Translations under genes and position numbers: made by a program
In this document: one piece after another, positions 33,654 through 36,109 of the stretch
How positions within the stretch are numbered: position 1 is the stretch's first letter
Layout: the number at the start of each line of letters is the position of its first letter
From: a virus
Direction: 5' to 3' (one strand)
DNA length: 39,164 bases
Virus record (IMG/VR): IMGVR_UViG_3300036651_000587
Coordinates: 1 to 39,164 of that record
Notes under the pieces: model-generated
Databases searched by the model: none
Told to the model about the DNA's origin: nothing
Seen by the model: only the letters and a program-made list of their open reading frames with translations

Positions 33654-33786
33654 TCTCTTCGGCGACACCATAACCACGCCATCCCCATCAACAACCCGTA
33701 TGCCAAGCGTAATCAACCTTTCGCACGGCTTCATAGATTGGTGGCTGGCATATCCTAGAAACAGCCGCAAGGTGGCAACATGTTGA
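33646..33786 (+). pseudogene. Truncated copy of the replication-domain gene, cut by HNH
   Basis: 46 codons, GTG start. It reads MFDLFGDTITTP, then HGFIDWWLAYPRNSRKVAT before an early stop. The intact gene at 34238 reads MLDLFGDTNTSP, then FGFSEWWKAWPAGPRKVAK and continues for 140 residues. The copy therefore breaks at the conserved RKVA point, exactly where the HNH gene begins (its ATG at 33780 overlaps). It is best read as the 5' stub of the original gene left upstream of the inserted endonuclease. Confidence 0.75.
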
Positions 33787-34244
33787 CGCGTGAAAGCATT
33801 GGTTTATTGGTTAGATATGAGCCCGAGTCCGGTAAGTTTTTTTGGCTTGTAAATCGTGGTTCTCGCGCTAGGGTTGGAAATGAAGCCGGATGGGATAGGG
33901 CTGATGGGTATCGGCAGATTCGCATTGAAAACAAAATTTACTATGCGCATCGTCTTGCGTGGCTATCAGTGCATGACGTTTGGCCGGAACTTGTTGACCA
34001 TATAAATAGAAATCCTGCTGACAACAGAATTATCAATCTTAGATTGGCCAATAAGAGCATCAATGCGATAAACAGCTATGCCTCAACCAAAAATACCTCT
34101 GGTTTTAAAGGCGTTTCTTGGTCTAAAGGGATGAAAAAATGGCGCATGAGCCATCAAGCATCGGGCGTGCTAAGCCGAATGTATTTCGATGATGCGGCCA
34201 CTGCTGGAGCGGCATATTTAAAGATCGTGGAGGCCAAATGCTAG
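33780..34244 (+). CDS. HNH homing endonuclease with AP2-like domain
   Basis: 154 residues. The HNH_3 pattern is HRLAWLSVHDVWP (about 59-71), LVDHINRNPADNRIINLRL (about 73-91), with a C-terminal AP2-like part (TSGFKGVSWSKGMKKWRM). AT-richer than its neighbours. It sits between the 5' stub and the intact copy of the same gene, overlapping both. It is related in architecture, but only distantly, to the enzyme at 10480. Confidence 0.88.
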   Translation: MLTRESIGLLVRYEPESGKFFWLVNRGSRARVGNEAGWDRADGYRQIRIENKIYYAHRLAWLSVHDVWPELVDHINRNPADNRIINLRLANKSINAINSYASTKNTSGFKGVSWSKGMKKWRMSHQASGVLSRMYFDDAATAGAAYLKIVEAKC

Positions 34245-34660
34245 ATTTGTTCGGCGATACCAATACTTCCCCCTATATTCCGTCAAGTCGAAAATCAAGC
34301 CGTCTTTTAAATAGTGCTTTTGGATTTTCGGAGTGGTGGAAGGCGTGGCCCGCAGGCCCCCGCAAAGTAGCCAAGCAACAAGCTCTCGACAAATGGGCGC
34401 GCTTCGAGTGCGCAACCAGCGCAACACTGATCTTGCAGCACACCGAATGGATGAAAACTCAGCCAGATTGGCTCAAGGACAACGGAGCATTCATCTGCGC
34501 GCCGCTTGTTTACTTGAACCAGCAACGGTGGGCCGACTGGCAACCAGAGCCCGAACGCCCCAAAAAACAGGGCGAATTAGAGCGCATAAAAGCCCACATA
34601 GGCGCACCAATGCCAGATTCAATCAAAGCGCTCAGGGCGCGTATTAGGGGAGTAACGTGA
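34238..34660 (+). CDS. Phage replication-type domain protein (WxxWPxxxRKVAK)
   Basis: 140 residues. WWKAWPAGPRKVAKQQALDKW (about 31-51), then WLKDNGAFICAPLVYLNQQRWADW (about 84-107), is the pattern found at the C-terminus of many phage replication/primosome-type proteins. Here it stands alone. No helicase, primase or polymerase gene is visible, so this may be the main link to host replication. It overlaps the methyltransferase start by 4 bases. Confidence 0.65.
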   Translation: MLDLFGDTNTSPYIPSSRKSSRLLNSAFGFSEWWKAWPAGPRKVAKQQALDKWARFECATSATLILQHTEWMKTQPDWLKDNGAFICAPLVYLNQQRWADWQPEPERPKKQGELERIKAHIGAPMPDSIKALRARIRGVT

Positions 34661-35421
34661 ATGGCCTGGACAATCAGCAACTCCCTGATGAGGGATTACG
34701 AGAACTCCACCTCTTCGCTGGCGCGGGTGGCGGGATACTCGCAGGCCAACTTAACGGAAACACGTGTGTTTGTGCCGTCGAACGAGAGCCCTACGCCCAA
34801 GCCGTCCTTGTGGCACGACAAAACGATGGGACGTTTCCCCCTTTCCCGATTTGGGATGATGTGCGCACCTTTGACGGAAAGCCATGGCGCGGAATTGTTG
34901 ACGTGGTTTCTGGCGGCTTCCCTTGTACAGACATCAGCTCAGCCAGGACAAACAGCGCAGTTAACGGAGAACAAAAAGGCCTCGACGGAGAAAATAGCGG
35001 GCTCTGGACTGAGCAAGCGAGAATCATTCGTGAAGTGGAGCCCATCGAGGTACAAGTGGAAAACTCCCCAAATCTCACTATTCGGGGACTTGAGCGAGTC
35101 TTGTGGGACCTGGCCGAGATGGGGTTCAATGCTAAATGGGGAGTGTTATCAGGAGAAGCCGTTAACGCCCCTCATGAGCGGGAACGGATGTGGCTTGTGG
35201 CTACCCACCCCGACCGCGCACAACGCAAAAGAGGGGAATTATCCAGCCGAAAGAACCAGGAATACGCCGACCTTGGCCGCTGTACTTGGTGGAAAGATAA
35301 ACCCGGAATTCACGGAGTGGATGATGGGGTGGCCCATCGGACACACCGACTTAAAGCCATCGGGAACGGCCAAATCCCATTGGTTGCGGCAACAGCATGG
35401 CGAATGCTCGGGGGCGAATGA
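34657..35421 (+). CDS. dcm: DNA (cytosine-5) methyltransferase
   Basis: 254 residues, GTG start. Motif I LHLFAGAGGG (18-27), motif IV GGFPC with catalytic Cys90, motif VI ENSP (135-138), motif VIII HERERMWLV (173-181) and motif X GNGQIP (236-241) are all present, so a full C5-methyltransferase is encoded. The usual PCQ is PCT here (Thr91). It would methylate phage DNA against host restriction. A second open frame of equal length lies over it, see the next entry. Confidence 0.9.
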   Translation: MNGLDNQQLPDEGLRELHLFAGAGGGILAGQLNGNTCVCAVEREPYAQAVLVARQNDGTFPPFPIWDDVRTFDGKPWRGIVDVVSGGFPCTDISSARTNSAVNGEQKGLDGENSGLWTEQARIIREVEPIEVQVENSPNLTIRGLERVLWDLAEMGFNAKWGVLSGEAVNAPHERERMWLVATHPDRAQRKRGELSSRKNQEYADLGRCTWWKDKPGIHGVDDGVAHRTHRLKAIGNGQIPLVAATAWRMLGGE

Positions 35422-35425
35422 ATGA
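34661..35425 (+). CDS. Overprinted phage protein in +1 frame of dcm
   Basis: 254 residues, ATG start four bases after the dcm start and stop four bases after its stop. It is not a random frame. It matches a known phage protein pattern, often annotated near or as DNA methylase: SRFGMMCAPLT (62-72), AELLTWFLAASLVQTS (77-92), ISLFGDL then TWPRWGSMLNG (138-160), LPTPTAHNAK (181-190), INPEFTEWMMGWPIGHTDL (213-231). The stop is ATGA-coupled to the next small gene, as expected if translated. Function is unknown; it is probably linked to the methyltransferase. Confidence 0.75.
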   Translation: MAWTISNSLMRDYENSTSSLARVAGYSQANLTETRVFVPSNESPTPKPSLWHDKTMGRFPLSRFGMMCAPLTESHGAELLTWFLAASLVQTSAQPGQTAQLTENKKASTEKIAGSGLSKRESFVKWSPSRYKWKTPQISLFGDLSESCGTWPRWGSMLNGECYQEKPLTPLMSGNGCGLWLPTPTAHNAKEGNYPAERTRNTPTLAAVLGGKINPEFTEWMMGWPIGHTDLKPSGTAKSHWLRQQHGECSGANE

Positions 35426-35532
35426 GCTACAAAGATGCAATCAACCTCCTAGACCGCCGCCGCGAGGGCGCAATTATCCCGGTTTATCTCATTGATATAG
35501 CGCTGAGGGTTACGGGTGATCTGGATGATTAA
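35422..35532 (+). CDS. Small protein coupled to the overprinted gene
   Basis: 36 residues, beginning MSYKDAINLLDRRR. The ATG overlaps the stop of the overprinted frame (ATGA) and the frame overlaps the start of ninG. Short but well packed between neighbours. Function unknown. Confidence 0.55.
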   Translation: MSYKDAINLLDRRREGAIIPVYLIDIALRVTGDLDD

Positions 35533-36109
35533 AACCATCAAGCAAAAGGCTTGCAAAGTTTGCGGTGAAAACTTCATACCTTTTCGGTCTTTGGAAAACT
35601 GGTGCTCACCTGCCCATGGGGCGATTCTTGGTGCTGCAAAACTTGAAAAAGCAAAAGCTAAAGAGCAAGCCGCCGACCGCAAGGAGACGAGGGCTAAGCT
35701 GAAAGAAAAGAAGGAGGAAAAGCGCGGCTACTGGTTGGAATTAGCTCAGAAGGAATTCAATAGCTTCATTCGCCTGAGAGATCAGATAGCCGGGCATGCC
35801 TGCATATCTAGCGGTAGGCCGTTAAATTGGTCTGGAAATCAAGTAGACGCTGGACACTTCAGGAGTCGAGGCTCAGCCCCTCACATGCGCTTTGTTGAGG
35901 AAAACGTCCACGCCCAGAGCAAGTACGAGAACCGCTATATGTCAGGCAATGCGCCCGGCTATAGGGTTGGATTAATCGCCAGGATAGGCCTAGAGGCCGT
36001 CGAGGCGCTGGAAGCTGACCAAGAACCACGCCGGTACACCATTGACGACCTAAAGGCCATTAAACAAACTTACGCCGACAAGGTGCGAGCTTTGAAGGGT
36101 GAAAAGTGA
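35525..36109 (+). CDS. ninG: NinG-like recombination protein
   Basis: 194 residues from ATG 35525; a GTG nine bases upstream is less likely. An N-terminal zinc ribbon (C10, C13, C27, H31) is followed by a Lys/Glu-rich coiled coil (about 36-72) and a core containing VDAGHFRSRGSAPHMRF (about 111-127), characteristic of lambda NinG (Rap family), which resolves branched recombination intermediates in lambda. Works with NinB and ERF here by inference. Confidence 0.88.
   Translation: MIKTIKQKACKVCGENFIPFRSLENWCSPAHGAILGAAKLEKAKAKEQAADRKETRAKLKEKKEEKRGYWLELAQKEFNSFIRLRDQIAGHACISSGRPLNWSGNQVDAGHFRSRGSAPHMRFVEENVHAQSKYENRYMSGNAPGYRVGLIARIGLEAVEALEADQEPRRYTIDDLKAIKQTYADKVRALKGEK

Follow-up and report, generated by a model that had tools for sequence, protein, structure and literature searches.

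Two near-co-extensive overlapping frames of phage genomes probably encode a split cytosine-5 DNA methyltransferase

We analysed a locus of IMG/VR virus record IMGVR_UViG_3300036651_000587 (positions 1-39,164; this whole stretch of 39,164 nucleotides is called the window) at which two open reading frames, A and B, cover nearly the same DNA. Both frames are confirmed to be real, conserved and under selection. They likely code for the two subunits of one split cytosine-5 DNA methyltransferase (C5-MTase). Frame A would be the large subunit, comprising the AdoMet-binding and catalytic domain (motifs I-VIII) plus motif X, and frame B the small subunit, whose C-terminal half would give the target-recognition part and motif IX. 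This hidden second frame was met again in hundreds of phage and prophage loci, mostly without annotation. As annotation keeps only one frame, the arrangement is hidden.

Layout of the two frames

The two frames lie in a +1 relation, with starts and stops each 4 nt apart, exactly where the first-pass annotation had placed them, and together they span 769 bp. The locus is organized as follows.

34238..34660, + strand: upstream gene of 140 aa, replication-initiation/primosomal-like (phrog_9474, E 3.2e-12), with its stop TGA inside GTGAATG
34647..34663, + strand: initiation region GGGGAGTAACGTGAATG, with a Shine-Dalgarno-like GGGGAG, the GTG of A at 34657 and the ATG of B at 34661
34657..35421, + strand: frame A, 254 codons, GTG start, TGA end; proposed large (catalytic) subunit of a cytosine-5 DNA methyltransferase with motifs I-VIII and X (PF00145, AF2, VIA-align)
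34661..35425, + strand: frame B, 254 codons in the +1 frame of A, ATG start, TGA end; proposed small subunit of 254 aa, with target recognition and motif IX (phrog_1008, A-preserving shuffles)
35422..35532, + strand: 36-codon ORF, its ATG overlapping the stop of B (ATGA in the sequence)

In GGGGAGTAACGTGAATG, the TGA of the upstream gene (34658-34660), the GTG of A and the ATG of B overlap, and a single Shine-Dalgarno-like GGGGAG is present. The arrangement NTGAATG is found in 123 of the 150 relatives with an aligned start, and a Shine-Dalgarno-like sequence in 129 of them. The coupling of B to the next gene through ATGA, which had also been proposed, was borne out, as the TGA of B overlaps the ATG of the 36-codon ORF. 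The pair is flanked by an HNH endonuclease/replication-initiation-like pair and by ninG (33780-34244 and 35516-36109 of the window), surroundings that correspond to a lambdoid replication-recombination region.

Frame A carries the catalytic part

Frame A matches Pfam PF00145 (E 4.7e-25) and phrog_363 (E 2e-52). Conservation in A is concentrated in motifs I to VIII and X, and the interval between VIII and X is unconserved (0.22-0.39). The following motifs were located.

34705..34734, + strand: motif I (LHLFAGAGGG; conserved columns in A6)
34903..34938, + strand: motif IV (VVSGGFPCTDIS), with the catalytic Cys, in a PCT variant (sequence, relatives)
35053..35073, + strand: motif VI (QVENSPN; ENSP in 234 of 273 relatives)
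35164..35199, + strand: motif VIII (NAPHERERMWLV; H173, R175 and R177 invariant in A6)
35308..35400, + strand: motif X region (RLKAIGNGQIPLVAATAW; A conservation 0.88, A3/A1 divergence ratio 2.05, helices 223-236 and 241-252 of the A model)

In canonical C5-MTases, the target-recognition part and motif IX lie between motifs VIII and X of a single chain. Among the hallmarks of the PF00145 family, motifs I, IV (PC), VI (EN), VIII and X are all present in A, and motif IX and the target-recognition domain are missing from its chain. Neither conservation nor the AF2 model revealed these two parts in A, and no REAARLQxFP-type element is found between VIII and X. The earlier statement that one frame holds all C5-MTase motifs is thus incorrect.

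The AF2 model of A has a mean pLDDT of 81.3, with values mostly >90 in the catalytic domain and <50 at A193-209 and A215-226; residues A193-226 are predicted to be disordered. VIA-align superposed the model on M.HhaI with a Z score of 22.8 over 210 residues (rmsd 3.5), the aligned spans being residues 13-254 of the model and 11-321 of the chain. As modelled, A is a catalytic domain followed by motif X, from which the small domain is absent, with a gap at its place.

The PCT form of motif IV had been considered a possible price of satisfying two frames. PCQ is found in 260 of 268 relatives and PCT in 8, the catalytic Cys is kept and nothing links the change to B. That idea was dropped, the T being an uncommon variant.

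Frame B carries a motif-IX-like element

Frame B matches phrog_1008 (E 9.1e-21 in the window), and this profile was matched in 28 of 28 relatives. No B examined matched Pfam above the cut-off or beyond chance, Pfam and NCBIfam searches with B gave nothing useful, and a PDB sequence search with the B profile gave nothing credible. The phrog_1008 profile, which matches the +1-frame protein, is labelled DNA methyltransferase, a function label that was probably inherited from the overlapping gene. Three parts of B call for attention.

35024..35152, + strand: middle part (WKT..SLFGDL..TWPRWGSMLNGECYQ), a zone of dual constraint over motifs V-VIII of A (resampling, predicted strands)
35197..35304, + strand: segment with selection in frame B (LPTPTA..GGKINP; conservation, codon-position divergence)
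35297..35353, + strand: motif-IX-like element INPEFTEWMMGWPIGHTDL (B conservation 0.87; pLDDT 83-88 in B201-230)

In the middle part, the real score exceeded all resamples in 85-94% of loci, and strands are predicted at B125-134 and B156-163. Over 35197..35304, conservation is 0.22-0.39 in A versus 0.37-0.62 in B. The most conserved element of B, LNPxWVEWLMGWPxGWT(DL), is located at the VIII-X gap of A and has the form of C5-MTase motif IX, for which the in-chain canonical element RLTPRECARLMGFPDTF serves as comparison. The pattern LxPxxxxxLMGxP occurs at the expected place in B, and in the loci that we call type 2, where motif X is in B rather than in A (type 1), it is in line with motif X. 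An hhalign comparison of the B profile with 12 canonical MTases gave no significant match (probability 0.1), and a profile comparison of the type-2 IX-X region with canonical IX-X gave a colinear, non-significant alignment (E 0.0022, probability 13%). The putative motif IX of B is therefore a match at the level of the pattern, with the right position and order. AF2 predicted B alone poorly (pLDDT 59.7; six rows from annotated phage records were left out of the AF2 input alignment), and this low-confidence model had no fold match in the PDB.

The pair recurs in phages and prophages

A tblastn search with B identified 46 phage records, in nearly all of which the annotation at B is a methyltransferase or hypothetical protein gene. 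IMG/VR, GTDB genomes and phage records yielded 214 loci, most of them fetched with B. B is +1 relative to the best frame for A in 213 of them, the remaining one is frame-swapped, and so are a handful of others in the set. Since this set had been chosen by B, the survey was repeated from A alone. All 55 IMG/VR loci chosen in this manner have B, eight of them being frame-swapped or having motif X in B. A PF00145 search of 22 bacterial genomes gave the same picture, with B in 17 of 17 MTases of the A clade (A profile >200 bits) and in none of 13 canonical MTases. For phage MTases such as those of Vibrio 1.091.O and Pseudomonas PS-1, B was missed by BLAST and found by profile. In the more distant branch of Paenibacillus phage Leyra and in added plasmid and phage loci, B occupies the same relative frame (58/58).

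Among 79 Pseudomonas genomes, 7 had a phrog_1008 match, in each case in an open frame free of stops. The 14 control genomes had no such match, although PF00145 is present in 10 of them. Searches of phages, plasmids, IMG/VR records and GTDB genomes did not turn up a stand-alone B. Every B examined overlaps an MTase frame, so that the second protein does not behave as an unrelated gene independent of its host gene. The first-pass annotation had regarded B as a separate known family and the dual coding as a rare oddity. The family itself has been seen only in the +1 frame of methyltransferase genes of this kind, and every member of the A clade examined carries it.

In Stenotrophomonas phage SOVA965 (L049, 1706-2431), the MTase CDS as annotated begins within the gene, and in the C-terminal half the identity to the window is higher for B (57%) than for A (46%).

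Both frames are constrained beyond chance

We permuted the codons of A synonymously, which keeps the A protein and its codon usage, in 100 shuffles. On average, a shuffle introduced ~5-5.9 stops into frame B of the window, and in all 100 of them that frame was interrupted. For the 131 held-out loci, outside the profile-building set, the B-family score is 276 bits on average for the real sequences versus 131 bits for the shuffled ones, and the real B is above all 100 shuffles in every case (131/131). About half of the B-family score survives the A-preserving shuffles. This half is a by-product of the conservation of A, and hence matches to the N-terminal part of the B profile alone prove little; a canonical MTase of a Streptococcus phage, read in its +1 frame, scores 47 bits there against the B family. 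The gain over the shuffles is largest at positions 191-229 of the B-HMM (58.5 bits, 100% of loci). It is seen in 94% of loci at positions 126-165, whereas positions 51-90 (44%) and the variable stretch 166-190 (29%) show little gain.

Codon-position divergence was determined for 253 pairs, which, like the loci, are not independent samples. The ratio of divergence at the third to that at the first position of A (A3/A1) is 1.5-3.8 over motifs I-IV, where the third position of A is freest, and 1.2-1.7 over motifs V-VIII. It falls to 0.36-0.45 in the LPTPTA-to-LMGWP segment, where the first position of A, i.e. the third of B, is freest, and at motif X the ratio of 2.05 marks the return to A. Thus, the frame under selection switches from A to B and back to A along the gene. 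This is the order expected if the catalytic domain, the recognition part with motif IX, and motif X were dealt over the two frames.

Counts of stop-free frames per region are partly built in, open B ORFs having been chosen, and the case therefore rests on the shuffles, the loci chosen by A, the codon-position divergence and the regional resampling. Constraint in both frames among relatives, which the first-pass annotation had left for comparison of related phages, was established by the 253 pairs, with selection in both A and B segments. That annotation would have given up dual coding if one frame had no homologues elsewhere and if its openness followed from the codon constraint of the other. 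The former is what we found, in that every B examined overlaps an MTase frame; the latter is contradicted by the shuffles and the divergence.

Natural rearrangements of the motifs

In four loci (L093 of Paraburkholderia, L116, L126 of an archaeal MAG and L311 of a Streptomyces plasmid), A ends soon after motif VIII, and the B ORF contains the motif-IX element and then motif X. Motif X is likewise in the B ORF in L260 and L274, and the motif-IX-like element is followed by motif X in one ORF in L360-L364, of which L360, L362 and L364 resemble L311. In a tree of motifs I-VIII, the loci with motif X in B are scattered among type-1 relatives (L093 by L227, L260 by L259), which suggests that motif X probably moved between frames more than once.

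Other loci show different combinations. In the metagenome contigs L269, L270 and L272 (about 1435-2340), which come from three samples, motifs I-VIII are joined to the C-terminus of B in one ORF, with the N-terminal two thirds of B in a second ORF and motif X in a third frame. Mycobacteriophage mcgavigan has motifs I-VIII, LLPTP repeats, the motif-IX element EWMMGWPAGWVT and motif X in one 439-codon ORF, and the same parts are found as two overlapping 'DNA methylase' genes in Arturo and Mori. Metagenome contigs may hold indel errors, and any single frame-swapped locus, or mcgavigan, could reflect a sequencing or assembly indel. Taken together, the rearrangements indicate that A and B hold pieces of a single enzyme.

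Further irregularities were noted. L030, L044 and L276 show frame swaps near motif IV; the difference between L030 and its close relatives lies at a G-rich tract (GGGG) and may be due to an indel error or to slippage or phase variation at this site. In L068, L080, L105 and L167, A has an in-frame stop between motifs VIII and X across which B is open, and motif X would need its own start. In Mycobacterium phage Llama (L051, 1935-2694), gp74 and gp75 are both called DNA methyltransferase, and the A frame is shifted mid-gene. In Mycobacterium phage Thibault (L373, 1386-3187), a canonical C5-MTase gene is apparently split by an HNH endonuclease gene, and motifs IX-X are in a separate downstream ORF.

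A split enzyme and the alternatives

We propose that one ribosome-binding site serves the two starts of NTGAATG, 4 nt apart. Ambiguous initiation at closely spaced starts has been shown in Escherichia coli for AUGUG and GUGUG (PMC9841429). Once translated, B would assemble with A into a heterodimer, the two jointly forming the cleft for DNA, and the enzyme would methylate the phage DNA; the small-subunit fold of B is part of the same proposal. Active C5-MTases have been assembled from detached fragments of M.HhaI, M.BspRI, M.BsuRI and M.SssI (PMC3404938). The arrangement may have originated by frameshifts in a once single-frame MTase gene, through a pair of indels, the first between motif VIII and the recognition part and the other between IX and X. 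Type 2 would then have arisen first and type 1 after it.

An alternative is that B is an independent protein, for instance a regulator or an anti-restriction protein, that overprinted dcm, as had been suggested at first. Selection acts on most of B, B-HMM positions 1-50 included, and B has its own start and a coupling to the downstream ORF. We nevertheless consider this unlikely. Among the loci examined, B was not found without the overlapping MTase frame, motif X is in the B ORF of several relatives, which makes B part of the enzyme there, and A by itself lacks both a conserved recognition part and a motif IX. The evidence points to the missing half of the same enzyme rather than to a separate family. 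The same division of motifs could also be overcome by programmed frameshifting from A to B, and possibly back, which would yield a conventional single-chain MTase. The canonical motif order does run from A to B to A along the DNA, and the ORFs of L269, L270 and L272 fuse motifs I-VIII of A to motif IX of B. We regard this as quite improbable, given that a start codon for B follows that of A by 4 nt in the 123 relatives mentioned above and that B is open through motifs I-IV, which a later shift would not need (~217 stops expected over 172 loci, a count biased by the choice of open ORFs).

That B might be a non-functional frame, kept open by the codon bias and conservation of A, accords with the half of its family score that the A-preserving shuffles retain. 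Nevertheless, the stops, the family score and the codon-position pattern all depart from expectation, and constraint in the LPTPTA-LMGWP segment falls on B, with A nearly free there, so that this explanation has very little to recommend it. Two subunits of one split enzyme thus remain the reading that we favour. On a broader scale, we lean slightly towards a clade with obligate nested subunits, comprising phage and prophage MTases from Proteobacteria to Paenibacillus, actinobacteria and archaeal MAGs, in which motif X moved between frames several times by frameshifts, and, as part of the same proposal, towards such frameshifts as a way by which one gene could naturally become two co-extensive ones.

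If the split-enzyme proposal is correct, very many of the phage genes annotated as 'DNA cytosine methyltransferase' (~230-300 aa) each specify just one half of the enzyme. Recoding for synthesis would then give clones that are inactive or of undefined specificity, and predictions of specificity from A alone would look at the wrong frame. Few sets of co-extensive overlapping genes on the same strand would be as broad as these loci in dsDNA phages. Their frame swaps, and the presence of motif X in either frame, would represent natural experiments on two frames sharing one DNA, and the enzymes would be natural split methyltransferases for targeted-methylation tools.

Comparison with known systems

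A search of the accessible literature yielded no account of the general two-frame arrangement. Both frames have been annotated in some mycobacterial and Paenibacillus phages, and no text that we found explains them. The Leyra genes gp61 and gp62 overlap in this +1 relation, the latter being nested in the former, and each is named as a DNA-cytosine methyltransferase; gp75/76 of Arturo and gp5/6 of Mori are doubly annotated phage methylase genes as well. Such double annotations were made case by case, whereas most records annotate one frame only, as MTase or hypothetical protein. In a known phage methylase gene with a second protein in another frame, that protein is an inserted selfish homing endonuclease and not a part of the enzyme.

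The A model aligns to the catalytic domain and motif X of M.HhaI, which, in contrast, has its target-recognition domain and motif IX in the same chain. The gene for the small subunit of M.EcoHK31I reportedly overlaps that for the large one in an alternative frame. This two-polypeptide MTase has motifs I-VIII and X on its large chain and IX on the small one (PMC3404938). Like the large chains of M.EcoHK31I and M.EaeI, A has motifs I-VIII and X, and the motif-IX-like element is in B. However, the frames of the window are co-extensive (254/254 codons) with starts 4 nt apart, and B spans the apparent recognition part. The predicted target-recognition domain of M.EcoHK31I is placed in the large subunit by the literature, whereas our split model would place it in B. 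The family described here, likened to that enzyme by motif layout, consists of phage and prophage MTases and is broader, with exchange of motif X. In M.AquI, the alpha subunit carries motifs I-VIII, and the beta subunit part of the variable region and motifs IX-X (PMC3404938). This layout is shared by L093, L116, L126 and L311, in which A ends after VIII and B has IX and X. In contrast, motif X is in A in the window (35308-35400) and in most relatives, and the two genes overlap heavily.
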